Shown piece after piece: positions 26,276 to 36,758 of a stretch of DNA of 64,000 nt. The stretch is taken from the NCBI GenBank assembly GCA_019637335.1, contig JAHBVV010000020.1, positions 62,001 through 126,000 on the forward strand. Direction: 5' to 3'. How positions within the stretch are numbered: position 1 is the stretch's first letter; each line of letters begins with the position of its first letter. The position numbers were made by a program, and so were the translations under genes. The notes under the pieces are model-generated. The model was not told the origin of the DNA. It did no database searches and saw nothing but the letters and a program-made list of their open reading frames with translations. Source of the DNA: Candidatus Hydrogenedentota bacterium. GTDB lineage: Bacteria > Hydrogenedentota > Hydrogenedentia > Hydrogenedentales > JAEUWI01.

Positions 26276-26922
26276 AGTCCCCCCACGTTCTGCGGGAATT
26301 GAGCGCCTATATCGACGGCGAGGCGCGCAACCCGGATCGCATAGCCCGGCATCTGCAATCCTGCCCGGACTGCGCCCGCCGCCACCTCGACCTGCTGAAG
26401 ATCGCCTACCAGATCCGCGGCTTGGAGGGGCCGGCTGTCTCCGCCGGCTTTGAGGGCCGGGTGGTCGCGCGGGCGGCGGAACCGCAGGAGCGTGAGATTT
26501 CGTGGCTCTGGGCCGGAGGCCACCCCCTCGTGGCGTGTGCGGCCATCTTCGCGGTGATCGCGGGTGTCGCGGCCTTCAACACCATGCGCGCGGATGCGCC
26601 GCCCCGGATCGGGGCCGAGTTGGCGCCCGCGCTGAACCCGGCCTGGCGCGAAGACGAGCCGGTGGTGGCGGCGCTGGCGCACCTGCTGGAGACCGGGGCC
26701 CCCACGGATCTTTTCGCGGCCTTCGATGGCGTGGAAGACGAGCTTCCGGACCGCGGCGACGTTCCGCTGGAGGAGGTATTGGATATGTTGGCGGAAGGCG
26801 CGATTGGCGGCGGCGGCGCGGAGGAGGCGTATGCGGGGTTTGGCGCGCCGCTCGATGACCTGGTGGAATTGGATCGGCGCGTGTTGGCCGATATGCTGGA
26901 AGAATACAGAGGCGAGGTGTGA
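26272..26922 (+). CDS. Membrane anti-sigma factor with zinc-finger (ZAS) motif
   Basis: A 216-residue single-pass membrane protein overlapping the sigma gene by four bases. Residues 27-34 give the HxxxCxxC zinc anti-sigma motif (HLQSCPDC), which binds and silences the ECF sigma factor. A membrane segment lies near 84-106 (PLVACAAIFAVIAGVAAF), and the last 110 residues face the periplasm; they are acidic and helical. Release of the sigma factor would follow proteolysis or a change in this outer part. It is followed after one base by the gene for a small periplasmic helical protein, a likely third component of the signalling route. Confidence 0.9.
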   Translation: MKSPHVLRELSAYIDGEARNPDRIARHLQSCPDCARRHLDLLKIAYQIRGLEGPAVSAGFEGRVVARAAEPQEREISWLWAGGHPLVACAAIFAVIAGVAAFNTMRADAPPRIGAELAPALNPAWREDEPVVAALAHLLETGAPTDLFAAFDGVEDELPDRGDVPLEEVLDMLAEGAIGGGGAEEAYAGFGAPLDDLVELDRRVLADMLEEYRGEV

Positions 26923-26923
26923 A

Positions 26924-27577
26924 ATGAACATCGGGCGTTTATTGCAGATCGTGTTGCCGGCGCTCCTGCTGTTGCTGGCGGGGCCCGTGTTGGCTCAGCC
27001 GGAAGGCGGGGCACAGGAAGACGGGAGCGCGGCGCGGCGCGCGCAGGCGCAGGAGTCGCGAAAGCTGCTGGAAGAGGTGCTGATGGCGCGGCTCTCGCGG
27101 GACCTGGCGCTGGAAGAGGGCCAGACGGTCGTGCTGGTCAAGCGCCTGGCCGAGTTTCGCGAGCGGGCGGCGGGATTCCGCCGGGATCGCATGCAGTTGA
27201 TGCGGTCGCTCAAGCAGGCGGTGCGCGAGAGCCAGGATGAGGGCGCGATCACGGCCCTGCTCGAGCAGATCGCGGAGCACGACGAGGCCGCGTTCCGCGC
27301 GCGCCAGGAGGTGCTGGACGTGGAGGGCCTCGATCTGACGGCGTGGCAGCAGGCCCGGCTGCTTATCTTCGTAAACGAATTTGAAGCCGACATGCGGCGC
27401 CTGCTCAACCAGGCGCAGGAGCGCCGATCGCAGGCGATCCAGCGTGGCCAGATGCGCGGCGGGCCGGATCGCGAGCGGGGCGCCCGCGGGCCCGGCGAAT
27501 CCGCGGAGGGGGAGGATACGGAGCCGGACGAGGGCAACACGGGTCCCGCCGGAGGCGGAGGAACGGAAACCCCCTGA
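26924..27577 (+). CDS. Periplasmic helical protein, Spy/CpxP-like, in the sigma operon
   Basis: The 217-residue product from ATG 26924 has a signal peptide (MNIGRLLQIVLPALLLLLAG, cleaved near VLA-QP). The mature part is almost wholly helical and rich in Arg/Glu (LLEEVLMARLSRDLALEEGQ, AEFRERAAGFRRDRMQLMRS), reminiscent of Spy/CpxP/ZraP periplasmic chaperone-sensors, although no LTxxQ repeat is clear. The last 45 residues are a disordered Gly/Glu/Pro tail. It begins one base after the anti-sigma stop, so it is surely in the same operon and may report envelope stress to the anti-sigma factor. Family assignment is tentative. Confidence 0.65.
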   Translation: MNIGRLLQIVLPALLLLLAGPVLAQPEGGAQEDGSAARRAQAQESRKLLEEVLMARLSRDLALEEGQTVVLVKRLAEFRERAAGFRRDRMQLMRSLKQAVRESQDEGAITALLEQIAEHDEAAFRARQEVLDVEGLDLTAWQQARLLIFVNEFEADMRRLLNQAQERRSQAIQRGQMRGGPDRERGARGPGESAEGEDTEPDEGNTGPAGGGGTETP

Positions 27578-27679
27578 TTTTCCGGGGAAACGGCCTCGCG
27601 CTATGCTGGCGCGTCGCGGCGCGGGTATGGTACCATCCACGCTCGTTTGCAGCAAAGGCCTTTTCTTCTGGAGTTTCCG

Positions 27680-28474
27680 TTGGATTACATTAAAGCATTC
27701 ATTTTGGCGGTGGTGGAAGGTGTGACGGAGTTCCTTCCGGTCAGCAGCACCGGCCACCTTATTCTTGTCGAGTCGCTCCTGGCGATGGGCGACGACCCGA
27801 GCTTTACGGCGACGTTTATCGTCATTATCCAGTTGCCCGCGATTCTCTCGGTCTGTGTTTATTTTCGCAAGACCTTGTGGCCGTTTGAGGGCGGGTCGCT
27901 CGATCCCGCCACGGTGACCCTCTGGACGAAGGTGGTCGCCGCGTTTCTTCCGGCCGCCGTGCTCGGTTTCCTGCTCGACGATTTCATCGAGACGCTGTTC
28001 GACGACCTGGTGGTGGCGGCCGCGCTGATCGTGGGCGGTATCGTGCTCATCGTCATCGAGCAGCGGAAGCACCAGGGGGCGACCGACACGATCGCGGCGC
28101 TGACGTACCGGCAGGCCGTGGGGATAGGCTTCATTCAGTGCCTGGCGATGATCCCGGGGACATCCCGATCCGGCGCAACCATCATCGGGGGCCTGCTGCT
28201 TGGCGCGAGCCGCCCCGTTGCCGCGGAGTTTTCGTTCTTTCTCGCCATTCCCACGATGCTTGGGGCGACGGCCTACAAGCTGGTGAAGAGCGGATTCGCC
28301 TTCACATCGCACCAGTGGGCGCTGATCGCGGTGGGCTCGGTGGTGTCCTTTCTGGTGGCGTACGCGGTAATTGCGATGTTCATGGCCTACATCCGCCGCC
28401 ACACCTTTGTGGCGTTTGGGGTATACCGTATCGTTCTGGGGTTGATCGTCCTTCTGGTTCTATACGTGCTCTAG
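27680..28474 (+). CDS. uppP: Undecaprenyl-diphosphate phosphatase (UppP/BacA)
   Basis: Recycles undecaprenyl diphosphate to the monophosphate lipid carrier used for peptidoglycan and exopolysaccharide. I choose a TTG start at 27680 (giving MDYIKAFILAVVEG), with GGAG 6-7 bases upstream; this matches the family's N-terminus, whereas the ATG-type frame from 27647 adds eleven unrelated residues. The 264-residue length is typical. Both conserved motifs are present: EGVTEFLPVSSTGHL and PGTSRSGATI. Eight hydrophobic segments span the inner membrane. Location just upstream of the sugar-phosphate transferases suits a role in lipid-carrier supply to them. Confidence 0.95.
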   Translation: MDYIKAFILAVVEGVTEFLPVSSTGHLILVESLLAMGDDPSFTATFIVIIQLPAILSVCVYFRKTLWPFEGGSLDPATVTLWTKVVAAFLPAAVLGFLLDDFIETLFDDLVVAAALIVGGIVLIVIEQRKHQGATDTIAALTYRQAVGIGFIQCLAMIPGTSRSGATIIGGLLLGASRPVAAEFSFFLAIPTMLGATAYKLVKSGFAFTSHQWALIAVGSVVSFLVAYAVIAMFMAYIRRHTFVAFGVYRIVLGLIVLLVLYVL

Positions 28475-28508
28475 ATCCGGCCGCTCCGGCCGCGGGAGTG
28501 TACGCGAG

Positions 28509-28955
28509 ATGTCCGGGTATTCAAGCGAGATAGCCAGGTACCAGCTTATTGCCTTCGCGATAGCCGCCGCGCCGCCCGTCTACATGCTGGTAATCCTGGT
28601 TATGAAGCTCTCGGGCGCCCTGCCGGAGAACGGCTTCGTCGAGTTTCCGGCGGACATTGCGCCGCTGATATCGCTCGCCCTGCTCGGCGCCGGCGTCGTG
28701 GCCCCGCTCACGTCCTTCTTCCTCAAGCCCGTTCTGATGGCGCGGCAGCGCCAGTCCAGTACGCCGCCGGGGCGCTTTCACGTGGCGCTGGTATCGATGG
28801 CGCTGTCGGAGTCCGGGGCCGTGCTGGGACTGGTATTGATGCTGATGACCGGCAACCTTCTCTACGGCGGCCTGCTCTGCGGTCTCTCCTTCGCCATAAC
28901 CTGTTTTCATATTCCCGGCCGCCACTGGCTCGCGTTCGGCGGCGCAACGCAATAA
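28509..28955 (+). CDS. Four-helix membrane protein of unknown function, F/V-ATPase c-like motif
   Basis: A 148-residue integral membrane protein from ATG 28509 with four predicted membrane segments. Segments 1 and 2 are about residues 10-33 and 48-72; segments 3 and 4 cover about 92-112 and 114-134. The third contains VALVSMALSESGAVLGLVLM, whose buried Glu in an ALSE-GAVLGL context resembles rotor-ring c subunits, though length and spacing differ and no ATP synthase genes are near. It lies 34 bases after uppP on the same strand and could share its transcript. I do not assign a function. Confidence 0.6.
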   Translation: MSGYSSEIARYQLIAFAIAAAPPVYMLVILVMKLSGALPENGFVEFPADIAPLISLALLGAGVVAPLTSFFLKPVLMARQRQSSTPPGRFHVALVSMALSESGAVLGLVLMLMTGNLLYGGLLCGLSFAITCFHIPGRHWLAFGGATQ

Positions 28956-29002
28956 CAGACCCACCCGCGCGGCGGGATCGCCGCCGAATGCCGGTAACCA
29001 TT

Positions 29003-29032
29003 TTGACACGGTGGGCGTAGCGGCGCTACAGT
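29003..29032 (+). promoter_or_regulatory. Sigma70 promoter of the exopolysaccharide transferase genes
   Basis: A perfect TTGACA (29003-29008), 18 bases, and TACAGT (29027-29032). The first start codon is 120 bases downstream, giving a leader of about 110 bases. Confidence 0.65.
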
Positions 29033-29151
29033 ATGGGCGAGGAGCGTGGCCAGCAGGGGAGGATCTCGCCGCCTGTCGTAATTTCCTCCTGTACGGCTTT
29101 CCCGGTCGCGCGCCGTTCGTCAATCTCATCGTGCTCAGCAGGAGGTTTGAG

Positions 29152-30348
29152 TTGGGTTTCTTTTCCAGGCGCCATGAGTTCCTCAATGCGAGTCTCCGGA
29201 TTGCGCTGGACCTCTCCTGTCTCGCCGGGGTCTACCTTCTGGCGGCCGTGCTGGTCCTGCCCGAGGGGGGATCGCTCGTAGCCTACGCGCGATCGGGCCT
29301 TCCGTACCTCGTGGCCTTCTCGACGATCTGGATCCTGGTTGCGACCGATCAGCGCCTCTTTCTCTCCCGGCGGAGCGAAGCCATGGTGGCGCTGCTCTTT
29401 TCCGTGGCGAAGGCTTTCTTCACCGCGTTCCTTTTCACGGTGTTCGTGATCGCGCTGTACATGCGCAATGACGACGGAAGCTCCGATCTGGACCGCACCT
29501 TTCTCTTTGTTTTCGGGCTTCTGGCGCTGTGCACCTTGCTCTTGTTCCGGCTGCTTCTCGGGTTGAGCCTGTGGAACCTGCGCCGCCGCGGCTTCAATTC
29601 GCGACGGATTCTGATCATCGGCAGCAACGCGCGCACGCAGAAGCTCGTGGACATTCTGCACGCAAACGAGCAGTACGGCTACCACGTCGAGGGCTTCCTG
29701 GAAGTGGACCCGGATCGCCGCCCGCTGCTGGAGGAGCGCGGGGTGACCTATCTGGGCCCCCTGGACGAGCTGGACAAGATCCTGGTTAACCGCGTCATTG
29801 ACGCGGTCTATATCGCGCTGCCGGTGCGCTCCTATTACGAGAAGATCCAGAGCGCGGCCCACCTCTGCGAGGGCGTCGGCGTGCCCGTGCGCTTCATGGC
29901 GGACCTGTTCCCCCTTCGCCTCGCCACCAGTGAGATGAACCATGTGGGGGACATCCCGCTGCTGTCGCTTTCCACGGAGCCCGGCGCGCGACCGCAATTC
30001 GCCTTGCACCGCGCCGTGGATATGGGGGTTTCCGCGCTGTTGCTGGTGGTGTTGTCGCCCGTGTTTCTGCTCGCGGCCGCCCTCGTGAAACTCGACTCGC
30101 CGGGGCCGGTCTTTACCACCCGGCCCCGAAGGACGCCGGGCGGGTCCATCGACCTGTGGGTGTTCCGCACCACGTCCGCCTCCACCCCGGAAGGCGGCGA
30201 GCCGGCGCTGACGCGCACCGGGCAAGTTTTCCGGCGGTACGGGATCGACGAATTGCCCGAGCTGATCAACGTGTTTCGGGGGGAGATCAGCCTGTCCGGC
30301 CCGATAGCCGGCGATGGCCGCGCAAGCAAGGTGGATAGCCCCGTTTAG
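29152..30348 (+). CDS. Polyprenyl-phosphate sugar-1-phosphate transferase paralogue, C-terminally truncated
   Basis: I place the start at TTG 29152, six bases after a perfect AGGAGG (29140-29145); this gives 398 residues starting MGFFSRRHEFLNASLRIALD. Four to five membrane helices (about 15-145) precede a CoA-binding-like Rossmann segment (RRILIIGSNARTQKLVDIL), as in WbaP/WcaJ proteins. The transferase domain starts well (VKLDSPGPVF) and keeps the catalytic Asp-Glu in GIDELPELINVFRGEISL. However, the usual KFRSM reads VFRTT, GPRP reads GPIA, and the last 60 or so residues (PG-TGLWQVSGR onward) are absent. It is immediately followed by an intact paralogue. It may be inactive, or serve as a partner of that enzyme. 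Confidence 0.8.
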   Translation: MGFFSRRHEFLNASLRIALDLSCLAGVYLLAAVLVLPEGGSLVAYARSGLPYLVAFSTIWILVATDQRLFLSRRSEAMVALLFSVAKAFFTAFLFTVFVIALYMRNDDGSSDLDRTFLFVFGLLALCTLLLFRLLLGLSLWNLRRRGFNSRRILIIGSNARTQKLVDILHANEQYGYHVEGFLEVDPDRRPLLEERGVTYLGPLDELDKILVNRVIDAVYIALPVRSYYEKIQSAAHLCEGVGVPVRFMADLFPLRLATSEMNHVGDIPLLSLSTEPGARPQFALHRAVDMGVSALLLVVLSPVFLLAAALVKLDSPGPVFTTRPRRTPGGSIDLWVFRTTSASTPEGGEPALTRTGQVFRRYGIDELPELINVFRGEISLSGPIAGDGRASKVDSPV

Positions 30349-30384
30349 TCCGAACACGCTCCCGATCAGGTTGAGGTAACTACA

Positions 30385-31821
30385 TTGTTAATGTCTTCCA
30401 GCCCGCGAAAACGCGCAGTCCCGCCCGGCGTGCTTATCTTTCTGGACACCTGCTGCATTGTGGGCGCTTTTGCGACGGCGATAAACCAGTATGTTCCAAT
30501 GACCGAGCCCATCTGGCCGTCGGTGCGCGAAAACCTGCCCTACCTGGCCGTCATGTTGCTCGTCTGGTACAGCGCGGCGTTCGAGCGCGGGTTGTGGAGC
30601 GTGCGCAACCGCCAGGATGTCGTTCACTATCTGAGCGCCGTGACGAAGGCCGTCGGCGACGCGTGCGTGATCTGCGTCTTCGTCATGGTGCTGTTCACGC
30701 GCGGCGCGCTCAACCAGGTTTTCCTGGTGGTGTTTTGCCTTTCCACGCTGGCGTTTCTGCTCATGTTTCGCTTCGGCCTGCGCCTGATTATCCACAAGCT
30801 CCGCGACTTCGGGTATAACCAGCAGCGCGCCGCGATTGTGGGCGCGAACGTGCGCACGCGACGCCTCATCGAGGTGCTGCGGAGCCAGCAGGGTCTCGGG
30901 TATACGCTTGTGGGCGTGCTCGACGACGACCCCGGGCGCGCGAGCGCCATCGAAGGGACCGGCGTCCCCTATGCGGGGAAAATTGAGCAACTCGAGGGCA
31001 TGGTCGAGCGCGGGGAGGTCGAGGAAGTATACATATCCCTTCCGGTCCGGTCGTGCTACGAGGAGATCCAGGGGATCGCGCACCTGTGTGAAGGCGCCTC
31101 GGCGCCGGTGCACATGGTGGCGGACCTGTTTCCGATGCGGGTGGCGACCAGCCGGCTGATGCACCTGGAAGACATTCCGCTGCTGAACCTTTCGACGATC
31201 CCGGAAGCGCACGGCAAGGTGTTCATGAAGCGGGCCATTGATTTCATCGGCTCGTCCATTCTGATATTCATCCTGTGCGTACCGGTTCCCCTGATTCCTA
31301 TCCTGGCGCTGCTCATCAAGCTTGACTCCAAGGGGCCCGTGTTCTTCCTGCAGGAACGCGTCGGCCAGAATCAGCGCCGCTTCAAGATGATCAAATTCCG
31401 GTCCATGGTGACGAACGCCGAGGAATTGAAGGCGAAGCTTCTCGAGCAGAACGAAATGGACGGTCCGGTCTTCAAGATTAAGAATGACCCGCGGATCACG
31501 CGTCTGGGGCGCTTCATACGAAAGTACAGCCTGGACGAATTCCCGCAGCTCTTCAATGTCTGGCGCGGGGAGATGAGTCTGGTCGGCCCGCGCCCGCCGA
31601 TTCCCTCGGAGGTGGAGGAATACTCCTGGAGCCAGCGGCGGCGGTTGAGCGTTCGCCCGGGGATGACCGGCCTCTGGCAGGTGAGCGGGCGAAATGACGT
31701 TACCTTCGAAGAGTGGGTTGAGATGGATTTGGAATACATCGATTCGTGGTCCATCTGGCTGGATTTTGTTATATTGATGAAAACCTTCCGGGCGGTTGTC
31801 GCCGGGCGGGGCGCGTCCTAA
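30385..31821 (+). CDS. Undecaprenyl-phosphate sugar phosphotransferase (exopolysaccharide priming enzyme)
   Basis: The enzyme that starts a repeat unit by moving a sugar 1-phosphate from a nucleotide sugar onto undecaprenyl phosphate in the inner membrane. Start is TTG 30385 (GAGG 8 bases upstream) or ATG 30391; the former gives 478 residues. N-terminal membrane helices, a Rossmann segment (QQRAAIVGANVRTRRLIEVL) and a last hydrophobic helix lead to the catalytic domain. All motifs are intact: KLDSKGPVFFLQERVG, MIKFRSM, SLDEFPQLFNVWRGEMSLVG, GPRPPIPSE, and RPGMTGLWQVSGRN. It follows the truncated paralogue by 36 bases, aligns with it over the whole length that survives, and is doubtless co-transcribed. 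Sugar specificity cannot be read from sequence. Confidence 0.92.
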   Translation: MLMSSSPRKRAVPPGVLIFLDTCCIVGAFATAINQYVPMTEPIWPSVRENLPYLAVMLLVWYSAAFERGLWSVRNRQDVVHYLSAVTKAVGDACVICVFVMVLFTRGALNQVFLVVFCLSTLAFLLMFRFGLRLIIHKLRDFGYNQQRAAIVGANVRTRRLIEVLRSQQGLGYTLVGVLDDDPGRASAIEGTGVPYAGKIEQLEGMVERGEVEEVYISLPVRSCYEEIQGIAHLCEGASAPVHMVADLFPMRVATSRLMHLEDIPLLNLSTIPEAHGKVFMKRAIDFIGSSILIFILCVPVPLIPILALLIKLDSKGPVFFLQERVGQNQRRFKMIKFRSMVTNAEELKAKLLEQNEMDGPVFKIKNDPRITRLGRFIRKYSLDEFPQLFNVWRGEMSLVGPRPPIPSEVEEYSWSQRRRLSVRPGMTGLWQVSGRNDVTFEEWVEMDLEYIDSWSIWLDFVILMKTFRAVVAGRGAS

Positions 31822-31873
31822 AAAATTTCCCTGTGGGCCATTCCCCGCGGCCATTACGGCTGTTCGCACGAAG

Positions 31874-31895
31874 TGGCGCGCCGCTCGGCGCGCCA
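31874..31895 (+). terminator. Strong GC hairpin after the sugar transferase
   Basis: TGGCGCGCC (31874-31882) and GGCGCGCCA (31887-31895) pair perfectly around GCTC, 53 bases beyond the stop. There is no T-run, so it could slow or end transcription between the transferases and the regulator gene; the rest of this 208-base gap shows nothing else. Confidence 0.4.
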
Positions 31896-32029
31896 GGTCT
31901 GACGCTCAGGCCAGGATTGTAGCGTCGCGCGCCCTGTCCCTGTTCCGCGTGGCCTCCGCGATGCCGCAGCAGCCGCCGCGCGCCCCGGTCCGGTGGTCGC
32001 ATAAGTAACCTATTGGATAGGAGCCGCAA

Positions 32030-33865
32030 TTGTTTCAAGTCACGGCGAGGAGCGGGGCGTCGAAGGGCACATCCTGGGTGATCGCGGAGCGTCCGCTCGT
32101 GTTCGGGCGTGACATCGTGTGCGACATCCGGGTGAGCGATCCCCTCGTATCGCGCCGTCACTGCCAGATCTGGCTGGATGGCGATCGCGTGACGCTGCGT
32201 GATCTGGGCAGCAGCAACGCTACCTTCGTCAACGGCGAGCCGGTCAAGGAGGCGCGGCTGGAGCCTGGCGACGAGGTGGCGGTCGGCAGCGCGATATTCC
32301 TCGTTGCGCGGGTGGTGATGGACACCGAGGTTCCGTCGTTTTCCCCGAACTCGCCTCCGCCCACTCAATCTTTGGTGCCCGGCGAGCCCCTCTATCTCGA
32401 CCGCGACCGCACCGCGCTCGCGGTCCAGGGCCGCCCGCGCACGGCGGAGGATCTCGCCGAACTGTTCGCGCTGGGCCGACTGCTCAGCGAGGCCTCCTCC
32501 TTCTCGGGCCTCATTATGGCGCTGGTGCAGCGCGTGGCGGATCGATTTTCGCCGCGCGTGGTGTTGGTCGCGTACCGCCGCTACCTGGGCGAGGGCCTCG
32601 ACTTCTACCCGCAGGACAGCCACCGGCTGTTTTCCTCGCGGTATCCTGTGGACGAGGTGATCGGACGTTGCATGCAGGATCAGCAGGGGGTGCTTCTGCC
32701 GGAGGGTTATCGCAACGGGGAGGAAGCGGGGGTGCGCACGACGCTGGTCGCGCCCATGGTGCTCGGCCAGGAGGCGATCGGCGCGCTCATCGTGCAGGCC
32801 GAGTCGCCTGTGCAGATCTACGACGAGGGCGATCTCGAGTATCTGCTCGCCGTGGCGCAGGTCACGGCGCCTTACGCGCACGCGCTGGACCGGCTCCGTA
32901 TCCTGGAGCGCGAGAACGAGCTGCTGGTCGCGGGCGCCGCGGAAGGCGTGGCGCTGATCGGGGAGAGCCCGGCCGTCGAGCGGGTTCGGGGCCTGGCCCG
33001 GGACTGCGCGCGGTCGGATTTGAACACGATTGTGCTCGGGGAGACGGGCACGGGCAAGGAACTCGTCGTGCGCCTTATCCACCAGCTGTCGGCCCGATCG
33101 TCCGCGCCGCTGACGGTGGTGAATTGCGCGGCGATACCGCCCGAGCTGCTGGAGAGCGAACTGTTTGGTTACGAGCGCGGGGCGTTTACCGGCGCGCACA
33201 AGCAGAAAACCGGCCTTTTCGAAGAAAGCGACGGCGGCACGATGTTCCTGGATGAGCTGTGCGATCTCAGCCCGGCGAACCAGGCGCGGCTCCTGCGCGC
33301 AATCGAGACGGGGATCTTCCGGCGGCTGGGCGGGACCTCGGACATCCGCGTGAACGTCCGTTTCATCAGCGCGACGAACCGGAACATGGCCGAAGAGGTC
33401 AAGAGCGGCGCATTCCGGCGCGACTTGTACCACCGGCTGGGCGTCTTCGAAATCACGATCCCGCCGCTTCGCGAGCGCAAGAGCGATATTCAACTCCTGG
33501 CGAAGCATTTCCACCGCCAGGCGCGCGAGCGCCTGGGCAACCGAACCCTGGGTTTTACGGAGGACGCGCTCCGCTACCTGGAGGGCCAGCCGTGGCACGG
33601 GAACGTGCGCGAACTGCGGAACCGGATCGAACGTGCGATGGTAACCGCGCCGACGGAGCGTATCCGGCGCAAGGACCTGGAGCAGAGTCCCGACGCGGCG
33701 CACTCGGACGGCGAGCAGCCGCTCGCGACCCTGGAGGAGGCCGAAAAGGCCCACATTCACGAGGCGCTTCTCCGCTGCGATGGGAACATCGCGGCGGCGG
33801 CGCAGCTGCTGGATATCGGGCGCAGCACACTCTACCGGAAGGTCAGCGAGTACCGCCTTCTGTAG
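32030..33865 (+). CDS. Sigma54-dependent activator with FHA and GAF domains
   Basis: A 611-residue transcription activator from TTG 32030, with AGGAG 6 bases upstream. Residues about 20-95 form an FHA domain (FGRD 25-28, SRRH 41-44, NG 68-69) that binds phosphothreonine. A GAF-like domain (about 140-290) follows. The AAA+ domain has Walker A GETGTGKE (337-344), the sigma54-contacting loop GAFTGA (384-389) and Walker B GGTMFLDEL. A Fis-type helix-turn-helix (NIAAAAQLLDIGRSTLYRKV) ends the protein. It should couple a Ser/Thr kinase signal to RpoN-dependent promoters, probably including genes of this exopolysaccharide locus; no kinase gene and no clear -24/-12 site (GG-N10-GC) was found nearby. 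Confidence 0.92.
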   Translation: MFQVTARSGASKGTSWVIAERPLVFGRDIVCDIRVSDPLVSRRHCQIWLDGDRVTLRDLGSSNATFVNGEPVKEARLEPGDEVAVGSAIFLVARVVMDTEVPSFSPNSPPPTQSLVPGEPLYLDRDRTALAVQGRPRTAEDLAELFALGRLLSEASSFSGLIMALVQRVADRFSPRVVLVAYRRYLGEGLDFYPQDSHRLFSSRYPVDEVIGRCMQDQQGVLLPEGYRNGEEAGVRTTLVAPMVLGQEAIGALIVQAESPVQIYDEGDLEYLLAVAQVTAPYAHALDRLRILERENELLVAGAAEGVALIGESPAVERVRGLARDCARSDLNTIVLGETGTGKELVVRLIHQLSARSSAPLTVVNCAAIPPELLESELFGYERGAFTGAHKQKTGLFEESDGGTMFLDELCDLSPANQARLLRAIETGIFRRLGGTSDIRVNVRFISATNRNMAEEVKSGAFRRDLYHRLGVFEITIPPLRERKSDIQLLAKHFHRQARERLGNRTLGFTEDALRYLEGQPWHGNVRELRNRIERAMVTAPTERIRRKDLEQSPDAAHSDGEQPLATLEEAEKAHIHEALLRCDGNIAAAAQLLDIGRSTLYRKVSEYRLL

Positions 33866-36758
33866 CCGCGCCGGCGCCGCTCAGCGCTTGCAGTTCGCGC
33901 TGGATCTGGCCGGCCGCGCCCGGCGCGAGGTCCGGATCGGCGAGCAGGCGCTGGAAGGTGGCGCGCGCTTCCTCCGCATTGCCGGCGGCGGCCAAAGCCC
34001 GCGCGATGCTCCACTGGATCTCCAGGTGATCCGGGAATTCGGCCTCGGCTTCCCGGAGGCGTTCAAGCGCGCCCTCCGCGTCGCCGCCGCGCAGAAGCAG
34101 ATCGCCCCAGTGGACCGCGCAGGCGGCGCGCTGTTCGCCTTCCAGACAACCATGGGCGCGTTCGAAGAGTGTTGCCGCCAGGTCCCGCCCGCCGAGGGTT
34201 GCCGCCACGATCCCCAGATTGAGGGCGCTTTCGCAGGGCGCCCCGACGTCCGCCTGGAGCTGGTCGTAGGCCTCCTGGACCCGGCTGGCCGCCCAGCCAT
34301 ACGCCAGCATAAGCGCAAGGGGGGGCGTCTGTGGGGGTTGCGCGCGCAGCGCGGCGAGCAATACGCGGGAGGCGGCGTCGAGCTGGCCCGCGGGATCGCG
34401 CAACACCATGGCGACCGCCTCCACCTGGGGCAGCGGGGTTTCGGCGCGCTCCGCGAGCGCATCGGCGGACGCCAGCAGGGTGTCGTCGAAGTCCTGCCGC
34501 CGTTGATGTTTCTCGGTAAACGTGGCGAAGCGGTTCCACAGGTCCGGGCGCATGGGGCCGGCCTCCACGGCGCGGGCCAGGGCGTCGGCGGCGCCTTCGG
34601 CATCGCCAAAGCCCTCGTCCAGCACGGCTGCAAGCCAGGACCACGCCTCCGCGAGCTCCGCCCGATCCGCGGCGGACGGGTCGGTGATCGCCAGCAGCAT
34701 GTCGATCTGCCTGTACAGCACGCCGCGGTATTGATCGAAGCGATCGTGCTGCTTCGCAAACTCGTAGAACGCCGTCCAGGATGATTTGTCTTCCGGGGCG
34801 ATCTGGATTGCGGCGGCCAATGCCTGGCCCGCCGCGTCCAAATCGCCCTGGGCGGATTCGACCTGCATGATCATGCGGTAGATCTCGGCCGGGTTCCGCG
34901 CGCCGCCGTCAATGGCCTCCTGGAAGTGATCGCGGGCGGCGGCCCAGTGCGCGCCCGCCTCATCGGCGCGGTCGGGCTGGTCGCGCTTGAGTATAGCGGC
35001 GATCGACTCAACGCGCCCCAGGAGACCGTGCGCCGAAGGCAGGCCGGGCGCGGTCTCCAGAATCGCGCGCGCGTTTTCGCGCGCCGCCTCCAGCCGGTCT
35101 TCGGCCACCGGGATCCCGCCTTCCTCGCGCGCAGCGGCCTGCGCGAGCATGAGGTTCGCGCGCCCGGCGGGGAGGTGGTTCAGAAAAGCGTGGGGATTGA
35201 GCGCGAGCGCGGTCTCGAAGTGCCGCAGCGCGGCATCGGGCCGCTGCCGGTCCAGCTCGGCCAGGCCCATGTGCCCGGGGATCCTCCAGTTCCAGCCGGC
35301 GTGCCCCGCGGCGGATTCGAAGGCCCGCATGGCTGCGTCCAGATCGCCGGCTTGCCGGGCATCCTCGCCCGCATTGAAGTGATACTCGGAGACGAAACGG
35401 CGGGTTTCCTGCCAGGTGGCCAGGGCCAGCAGCACGGCGAAGGCGGCGCGCAGCGCGCGGGACCAGCCGGGCGGCAAGGAGGCCGCGTTCTGGCGGTTCT
35501 CACGCCAGAGCCCGTCGAGCAGGCCCATCACGATGAAGAAGAGCGCGGCGGTGACGGGTACGCGGAGGTTGAAGCCGAAGAGGCCGTCGATGGCGAAGGC
35601 GGCGAAGAAGGCGGCGAAGGCGTAGCCCAGGCGGCGGTGGGCGGGGGAGGGTCCCTGCGCGGCCATCAGCAGGCCAAAACCCGCGCCGAGCACAATCAGG
35701 GTGAGGTAGAGCCCGGCGGCCGCGATGCCGCCGTCGATGGCCAGCTCCAGGAGGTCATTGTGCACATGTTCGTTGACCCGCAGCTCCTGCGCGAACCAGG
35801 CCTGCTCGAAGGGGGTCCAGTGGGGCGCGTAGGCCAGCGCGTAGACGCCGGGCCCATGCCCAACCAGGGGAGACTCGAACAGCATGCTGGTTGCGCTGAC
35901 GTAGGATTGGTAGCGGAGGAGCAGGGAGAGGTCTAGGGGGAAGATCTGGCCCGTCCGCAGGTGGGTCATGTACATGGCGCTTCCGGCGGCGGCGAATCCG
36001 AGCGCGGCGAAGATCAGGAGCGAGGCCGTTACGCCCAGCACGGGGCGCCGGGACTTGCGGAGGAACACCCAGGAGATCGCCACGAGCGCGGCGGCCCCCG
36101 CCAGCGCGATCCAGCCGGCGCGTTGCCCGGTGCTGGCGAGGTGGAAGAGCAGCACGGGCGCCAGCACCCAGGCTGTCCACGCCGCGCCCGAGCGCAACAG
36201 GCAGGCGATCATGATCAGCGCGAGAATAATTGCGTGCGCGGCGTAGTTGGGGTTGCCGAAGGTCGCCGGGAGATTCGTGTAGGTATCGCTCGTCCTGTCC
36301 TCCCAGGGGAAGGGGTCGAGGCCGGCTTTCTGCGCCACGGCGTACAGCCCGGCCACAAAGACCGCGGTACAGAAGACGGTGAACAGGCGGAGGACCTGCT
36401 CGGGCGTCCGGTAGATCTGGCTGGCCAGCCAGTAGAGCGCAAATAGGCCGAAGAATTGCCCGGTCTCGAGCAGGCTGTAGCGGAAGTAGCCGGAAAAGGC
36501 GGTTCCGATGGCGAAAAACGCGAGCAGGCAGAGGATGACCTCGGCAAAGATGGCGGGCCGGCGGAGCGGGCGCCCGGTAATCCAGCTGACGAGCACATAG
36601 CTGCCCGCGAGCAGCCCCGCCGCCCAGGCGGTGATCAGCTCCTTGATGTGAATCGTCGGATCGTCCGTGCCCCAGTACATGGCGAGCACCAGAACAAACA
36701 AATAGGCGGCGAGCGCGAATCGGTAGAACGAATCGAGCTTGGAAGCAGGTTGGCTCAC
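33843..36758 (-). CDS. O-antigen ligase/polymerase-like membrane protein with C-terminal TPR domain
   Basis: A 971-residue protein from GTG 36758 (GGAGA 7 bases upstream). The first 430 residues hold about 11-12 membrane helices with the Wzy_C signature region: FGNPNYAAHAIILAL, LASTGQRAGWIAL and the periplasmic-loop motif RVNEHVHNDLLELAIDGG. Such proteins join or polymerise polysaccharide chains at the periplasmic face. The following 540 residues are TPR helices (for example AIDGGARNPAEIYRMIMQVE), an uncommonly long tail. Its 3' end overlaps the end of the sigma54-activator gene by 23 bases on the opposite strand. Together with the priming transferase and the GT4 enzyme it would build an exopolysaccharide. 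Confidence 0.85.
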   Translation of the reverse strand: MSQPASKLDSFYRFALAAYLFVLVLAMYWGTDDPTIHIKELITAWAAGLLAGSYVLVSWITGRPLRRPAIFAEVILCLLAFFAIGTAFSGYFRYSLLETGQFFGLFALYWLASQIYRTPEQVLRLFTVFCTAVFVAGLYAVAQKAGLDPFPWEDRTSDTYTNLPATFGNPNYAAHAIILALIMIACLLRSGAAWTAWVLAPVLLFHLASTGQRAGWIALAGAAALVAISWVFLRKSRRPVLGVTASLLIFAALGFAAAGSAMYMTHLRTGQIFPLDLSLLLRYQSYVSATSMLFESPLVGHGPGVYALAYAPHWTPFEQAWFAQELRVNEHVHNDLLELAIDGGIAAAGLYLTLIVLGAGFGLLMAAQGPSPAHRRLGYAFAAFFAAFAIDGLFGFNLRVPVTAALFFIVMGLLDGLWRENRQNAASLPPGWSRALRAAFAVLLALATWQETRRFVSEYHFNAGEDARQAGDLDAAMRAFESAAGHAGWNWRIPGHMGLAELDRQRPDAALRHFETALALNPHAFLNHLPAGRANLMLAQAAAREEGGIPVAEDRLEAARENARAILETAPGLPSAHGLLGRVESIAAILKRDQPDRADEAGAHWAAARDHFQEAIDGGARNPAEIYRMIMQVESAQGDLDAAGQALAAAIQIAPEDKSSWTAFYEFAKQHDRFDQYRGVLYRQIDMLLAITDPSAADRAELAEAWSWLAAVLDEGFGDAEGAADALARAVEAGPMRPDLWNRFATFTEKHQRRQDFDDTLLASADALAERAETPLPQVEAVAMVLRDPAGQLDAASRVLLAALRAQPPQTPPLALMLAYGWAASRVQEAYDQLQADVGAPCESALNLGIVAATLGGRDLAATLFERAHGCLEGEQRAACAVHWGDLLLRGGDAEGALERLREAEAEFPDHLEIQWSIARALAAAGNAEEARATFQRLLADPDLAPGAAGQIQRELQALSGAGAATEGGTR

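Follow-up and report, generated by a model that had tools for sequence, protein, structure and literature searches.

A tandem paralogue with a broken active site as a probable regulatory partner of an intact large monotopic phosphoglycosyl transferase in Hydrogenedentota

The first gene of a tandem pair found in the window, i.e., in the whole analysed stretch of 64,000 nucleotides of Hydrogenedentota DNA, probably encodes a pseudoenzyme subunit (hereafter A) that carries the regulatory role of the Rossmann DUF (PF13727) for the product of the second gene (B), a large monotopic phosphoglycosyl transferase (PGT) that initiates the synthesis of a surface polysaccharide. This reading draws on the broken active site of the A copies, their grouping in the tree, the purifying selection on A, the division of constraint between A and B, the linkage of the two genes and their fusion into single chains, and by it a single ancestral protein appears to have been divided into a catalytic and a regulatory subunit.

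The genome to which the window belongs (7.16 Mb in 55 contigs) contains three PF02397 genes, namely A, B and one elsewhere. A truncated sugar-transferase paralogue placed before an intact copy had been proposed originally, and this was borne out by the domain searches, in which PF02397 matched A at 68 bits over the profile positions 2-107 of 179 only and B over the positions 1-178, the two genes lying on the same strand, A then B, 36 nt apart. A C-terminus of A hidden between the genes was ruled out, because the spacer is just that long. The match of PF13727 reached 62.8 bits in A (profile 8-175 of 175) and extended over 27-169 in B. Judged from the domain content, both proteins are large monotopic PGTs, B with the full domains and the catalytic residues, and A with the TM four-helix bundle and the PF13727 DUF and without a complete catalytic domain; they share the TM part, the Rossmann DUF and the re-entrant catalytic layout with WbaP/WcaJ (PF13727 and PF02397; TIGR03023, TIGR03025). 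B scored 419 bits with TIGR03025 (cut-off 295.55) and is a member of that family, and since its 366.5 bits with the WcaJ equivalog TIGR03023 are below the cut-off of 410.75, it was filed under the wider TIGR03025 only. The coordinates of the pair and of the neighbouring features are given in Table 1.

Table 1. Features of the A-B locus in the window
Feature	Position	Strand	Remarks
A, predicted pseudo-PGT	29152..30348	+	398 aa, TTG start 29152, TAG stop 30346-30348
Parts of A			TM bundle ~residues 9-145; Rossmann DUF ~143-256; eroded catalytic remnant 287-384; tail ends SKVDSPV
Rossmann DUF of A (part of PF13727)	29578..29919	+	most constrained part of A
Catalytic-domain remnant of A	30010..30303	+	PF02397 profile 2-107/179
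B, intact large monotopic phosphoglycosyl transferase (by sequence)	30385..31821	+	478 aa, stop 31819-31821, TIGR03025 above cut-off
Shine-Dalgarno AGGAGG of A	29140..29145	+	6 nt ahead of TTG
Sigma-70-like site upstream of A	29003..29032	+	10/12 matches, not above chance
UppP/BacA undecaprenyl-diphosphatase	27647..28474	+	same cluster in four congeners
FHA-GAF-sigma54 activator	32030..33865	+	

The alignment of A with B covers 390 columns at 38% identity and ends at the common 'GP', beyond which 76 residues follow in B and 14 in A. As had been described originally, the membrane part, the Rossmann segment and the DE dyad (IDELPE) are kept in A, and KFRSM, GPRP and the last about 60 residues are lost, with VFRTT and GPIA standing in place of the first two; the frame is clean, with no internal stop in 29152-30345. 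The catalytic core of A is more than cut, since residues upstream of the cut are also substituted. With the catalytic set taken as K59/R88/D93/E94/R111 in the PglC numbering given in PMC12802240, the window A reads V, R, D, E, I and the window B reads KRDER, so that the remnant of A is devoid of the K59 and R111 equivalents as well as of the C-terminal part. The DX12P motif of the re-entrant helix is kept in the window A, has E in place of D in the A copies of four genomes (G007, G015, G029, G042), and reads D..V at the strict spacing in the window B. The tail K[V/M]DSPV (window 30328-30345) also ends A in G001, G002, G003 and G005, which belong to two genera; the residues right before it vary.

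The structure of A was predicted by AlphaFold2 with an alignment of four rows (A and three relatives), and the model (mean pLDDT 62.5, pTM 0.44) is usable for the DUF and pieces of the TM bundle only, with the pLDDT of 70-87 in all ten blocks of the residues 151-250 and low values from 251 on. It contains the predicted helices 9-35, 42-71 (in two pieces), 78-104 and 112-145, along with the Rossmann strands. Foldseek placed WbaP 8t53 first among the PDB matches, ahead of NADH-sensing Rossmann proteins of the Rex type, and WbaP 8t53 was also the top PDB match of both A and B by profile. The superposition on WbaP gave an rmsd of 22 A over the whole chain, and thus the domain fold is supported and the domain arrangement is not.

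The tandem pair had been proposed to be sought in related genomes, and among 68 Hydrogenedentota genomes, all of one order and comprising 11 families, a protein of the A type that either immediately precedes B or forms one chain with it was found in 20 genomes (G000-G003, G005, G007, G009, G011, G013, G015, G018, G021, G024, G029, G042, G047, G054, G055, G056, G060) of eight families (f1, f2, f4, f5, f6, f8, f10, f11). In 14 of these the genes are adjacent on one contig, on the same strand, with A upstream; four pairs are fused, the B of G009 is cut at a contig end, and the pair of G056 was inferred across a contig break, its A being split over two contig ends. The frame is open in 19 of the 20 A genes; in G056 the frame of A changes shortly before the contig end (L074:1-200, minus strand), which may be an assembly error or real damage. 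With the reduced A of G047 as a query, no A copies were recognised past these 20. The search with A gave one locus (L034) in the genome contigs and, in the plasmids, 42 records (30 of them listed), every one with less than 60% identity and with a coverage of the query short of 80%, and no relative of B was found in the viral contigs. Single-copy relatives, designated S, served for comparison; the S-type matches seen in G062-G067 and G054:C269 are not part of the S set, and weaker transferase matches in G062-G067 and G054 lie outside the study.

A full-length first copy in the relatives was expected to expose A as a recent frameshift or a pseudogene, and in all 20 A copies the catalytic domain is incomplete or absent. 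The complete five-residue catalytic set was found in none of the 20 A rows vs. all 20 rows of B and all 20 of S, where one A row (G056) is cut by the contig end and three (G047, G055, G021) have no domain. The A of G024 extends furthest and has the PGMTG motif, but a DD dyad; one residue of the five is missing there and in G018 (R88 to L), and the end of the catalytic core is absent in both. The DE dyad is kept in nine of the 20 rows (G000-G003, G005, G013, G018, G029, G060), changed in seven (G007, G009, G011, G015, G024, G042, G054) and gone with the domain in three (G021, G047, G055), and a piece of the G056 protein on the other contig has DE kept and A for K. Because just these nine rows keep it, the dyad is not the target of selection across the group. 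On the sequence evidence, A is a catalytically broken relative of the intact B.

The most reduced A proteins, of 222 aa in G047 and 177 aa in G055, still stand directly before B and consist of the Rossmann domain (PF13727 at 36.3 and 27.8 bits, respectively) and a hydrophobic C-terminal segment, which is a predicted membrane anchor, with no four-helix bundle. The A half of the fused chain of G021, which is joined to a complete B, comprises the TM part and the Rossmann domain with no catalytic remnant. Thus, the Rossmann domain is the part retained in every A found. The segment equivalent to the swap hairpin/linker of WbaP is hardly recognisable in these three A forms (10-16% identity to S). 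A 147-aa single-domain receiver (PF00072, 2.1e-20; L049:3640-4080, plus strand) is encoded directly upstream of the Rossmann-only A of G055, and this row of response regulator, DUF protein and PGT recalls EpsW/EpsZ.

In an unrooted tree of 57 rows (19 of them A), built from the TM and Rossmann columns only with 200 bootstrap trees, a branch with 94/88 support (96% of the bootstrap trees) sets the A rows apart, B forms a clade at 99/90 that includes a fragment evidently representing the B of G009, and 19 single-copy proteins make up the third group at 100/98, the deep forks inside A being poorly resolved. One old tandem duplication would be the simplest reading of this tree; it is probably older than the split of most families sampled, and A has not been truncated recently. 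The A+B tree and the identity comparisons exclude G056, whose A is divided between two contigs, and G060 was included only in the later analyses, among them the fusion test. In four genomes A and B occupy one open frame (868 codons in G007, 941 in G015, 830 in G021 and 869 in G042, stop to stop), and each of the four fused chains has two PF13727 stretches. One fusion origin was rejected on the joined A+B tree (AU p=0.0108), and a single fusion group of G015, G042 and G021 was compatible with it (AU p=0.368). The fusion may thus have arisen at least twice if the joined tree is right; the A tree and the B tree, built separately, place close pairs alike but disagree at deep forks of low support, and the joined tree under the test is weaker for it. 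Both A and B of G015 and G042 (L046, L047) group with full support, the two genomes being coded as the families f10 and f5, which points to either horizontal transfer or a taxonomy issue.

The constraint is divided between the two proteins. In four congeners, the Rossmann part of A has the lowest pN/pS of that protein (0.13-0.21) and the catalytic remnant the highest (0.26-0.44); the minimum in B falls in the catalytic part (0.09-0.21), with 0.16-0.31 in the Rossmann part. The whole-gene values of A are 0.21-0.30 with the synonymous sites near-saturated, from which A appears to be under purifying selection in these congeners. Between genomes, the mean pairwise identity of the Rossmann domain is 51.7% in A vs. 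41.1% in B, being higher in A in 146 of 153 genome pairs, and that of the catalytic domain is 38.8% vs. 69.0%, being higher in A in none of 120 pairs, where the per-domain counts skip the cells with too few aligned columns (therefore 120 and not 153 pairs, and 17 and not 18 genomes). The TM bundle is about equally variable in A (34.3%), B (33.3%) and S (32.3%), with the A copies more alike in 66 of 120 pairs. The genome pairs are not independent, and among the seven taken as near-independent the Rossmann pattern holds in six, with the exception of G055/G047 (A 64%, less than B 71%).

The same division was found in the comparison with S: the Rossmann domain of A is closer to S than that of B in 18 of 18 genomes, and the catalytic domain of B is closer in 17 of 17, as is the segment of the WbaP swap hairpin/linker in 18 of 18; in the TM part, with A closer in 11 and B in five, there is no clear split. 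With one genome per genus, which leaves out G001, G002, G003 and G047, A resembles S more closely than B does in 15 of 15 for the Rossmann domain and in none of 13 for the catalytic one. At one marked site, R247 of A, the residue is R in 17 of 19 A copies and in all 20 S proteins, and H in 15 of 20 B. The DUF of B is still present, merely drifted. Such a split is what duplication, degeneration and complementation would leave, with the DUF role kept by A and the chemistry by B.

The Shine-Dalgarno sequence of A was predicted to be the strongest of the locus, and it is so among the starts of the seven neighbouring genes compared, matching AGGAGG at 6 of 6 positions vs. 2-5 at the others. The claim of the strongest promoter failed, as one sigma-70-like site was found in 28400-32100 vs. 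0.8 expected in shuffles. In the search for sigma-54 promoters ahead of A, at least 13 of 100 shuffles equalled the best site in 19 of the 20 loci, the window included, and one candidate (L050) was equalled by 1 of 100. In four congeners the genes follow each other as CysS, sigma factor, anti-sigma factor, a gene without a name, UppP, another such gene, A, B, the sigma54 activator, and a Wzy_C/TPR protein. The last of these (window 33846-36758, minus strand) has a Wzy_C O-antigen ligase domain and a long TPR region and is near A-B in the four congeners, and the two small genes at 26918-27574 and 28509-28952 have no Pfam match at 0.001 and keep their order there. Outside the genus most neighbours change, and the A-B adjacency stays; of the window neighbours it is mainly the sigma54-type activators that recur.

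The flanks of 12 of 20 pairs contain an activator of this type, and those of the 20 single-copy loci, from 18 genomes, have none (Fisher p 4.5e-5); the flanks differ in length, and the activator is 2-3.4 kb away in some cases. As the query came from the window, the count was also taken with the window excluded (11 of 19 pairs), and with the genus counted as one it is 9 of 17 pairs (p 2e-4). Four genomes encode proteins of 566-594 aa that adjoin the sigma54-type activator (L038:9176-10888, L039:8798-10540, L041:3660-5357, L045:4076-5857), have an N-terminal receiver domain and are divergent from A, with no further Pfam match at 1e-8 (0.001 for L045). No single-domain response regulator was found by Pfam content among the nine window neighbours scanned.

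Several other roles of A may be weighed against these results. The original prediction argued against simple decay, and it is upheld: that A is a decaying pseudogene hardly deserves any credence, for although it is truncated, has lost catalytic residues and shows a frame change near the contig end in G056, the purifying selection on the whole gene, the 19 open frames of 20, the grouping of the A copies, the conserved A-then-B adjacency and the repeated fusion speak against decay, and independent recent events throughout are very unlikely given the tree. For the window A, a pseudogene or a recent frameshift was rejected on the tree, the pN/pS, the occurrence in 20 genomes and the active-site comparison. 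It is also very improbable that A would retain a transferase or other activity with an altered active site; the DE dyad with DX12P in the window A and the dyad in nine rows would fit such an activity, but the dyad is changed in seven A and absent in three, and those A copies that were aligned to B stop short of the end of the catalytic core.

The remaining alternatives accept A as a partner of B. As a purely structural partner, i.e., a membrane anchor or a dimer-stabilising chaperone with no ligand sensing, A would replace half of a homodimer; the TM bundle in most A, the DUF in all of them and the fusion to B are in keeping with it, as is EpsW, proposed in PMC12802240 to favour the EpsZ dimer. 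However, the A of G047 and G055 keep the Rossmann domain without the four-helix bundle, and the Rossmann domain of A is better conserved than its TM part, the latter argument being weak because the TM part is equally variable in B and S, so that this role appears unlikely, albeit worth keeping in mind. Still less probable is a negative regulator, a dominant-negative partner lowering the initiation and saving undecaprenyl phosphate. The active site of A is broken, and according to PMC10942596 UMP inhibits WbaP and may act at an allosteric site in the DUF; with A and B fused in two or more lineages, the inhibition would nevertheless be permanent, though a conditional brake is conceivable.

The reading of A as a regulatory pseudoenzyme subunit would account for the pair by a tandem duplication of a large PGT followed by a division of labour between the copies. 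B would have kept the catalytic domain for the transfer of sugar-1-phosphate to undecaprenyl phosphate, and A would have lost the catalysis and retained above all the Rossmann DUF; together they would form a heteromeric large PGT (A-B) in place of the homodimer, in which A may supply a nucleotide-sensing DUF and a partner surface and so set the activity of B. The regulatory or scaffolding partnership proposed in the original prediction is thereby supported and sharpened to a keeper of the Rossmann DUF, where we infer the physical A-B complex, the ligand binding by A and the direction of the regulation. As the swap hairpin is better kept in B than in A, a mutual hairpin swap of the WbaP type would not be the whole interface. 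The catalytic remnant of A is still mildly constrained and may have a use of its own, which is a point against the subunit reading. The stronger version, to which we give somewhat less than an even chance, is an obligate heteromeric initiating transferase with the sensing DUF on the dead paralogue and the catalysis on B, re-joined more than once as a single-chain pseudo-dimer.

Pseudoenzyme subunits are known in which a dead paralogue is kept beside the active one and is sometimes fused to it, and the A-B pair resembles this class. In the literature search, which covered mostly open-access papers with the broad queries partly inspected, no non-catalytic paralogue partner of a PGT was found. 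According to PMC10942596, the large PGTs are the most abundant monotopic class, and WbaP is a homodimer of catalytic subunits whose DUF carries most of the dimer contacts and is implicated in uridine-nucleotide binding; unlike it, every pair found here has one intact and one broken paralogue, between which the constraint on the DUF and on the catalytic domain is divided. The Bi-PGTs, described in the same source as a monotopic PGT fused to another functional domain, are alike in the fusion to the PGT core and differ in that the fused part here is a second large PGT with a broken or absent catalytic domain. A large PGT with a second, non-catalytic protein is also seen in Myxococcus xanthus, where EpsW (EpsW~P) activates EpsZ, as reported in PMC12802240, but the second protein there is a single-domain response regulator, and here it is a paralogue of the PGT.

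The role of the DUF in the large PGTs is unsettled, and in these genomes nature separates it from catalysis. Thus, A shows what the DUF must keep in order to serve without an active site of its own, and B shows which features the enzyme can dispense with once it has a partner for the DUF role. The A-B pair makes the question of the DUF directly testable, with the single-chain versions as tractable targets for the structure of the supposed dimer.
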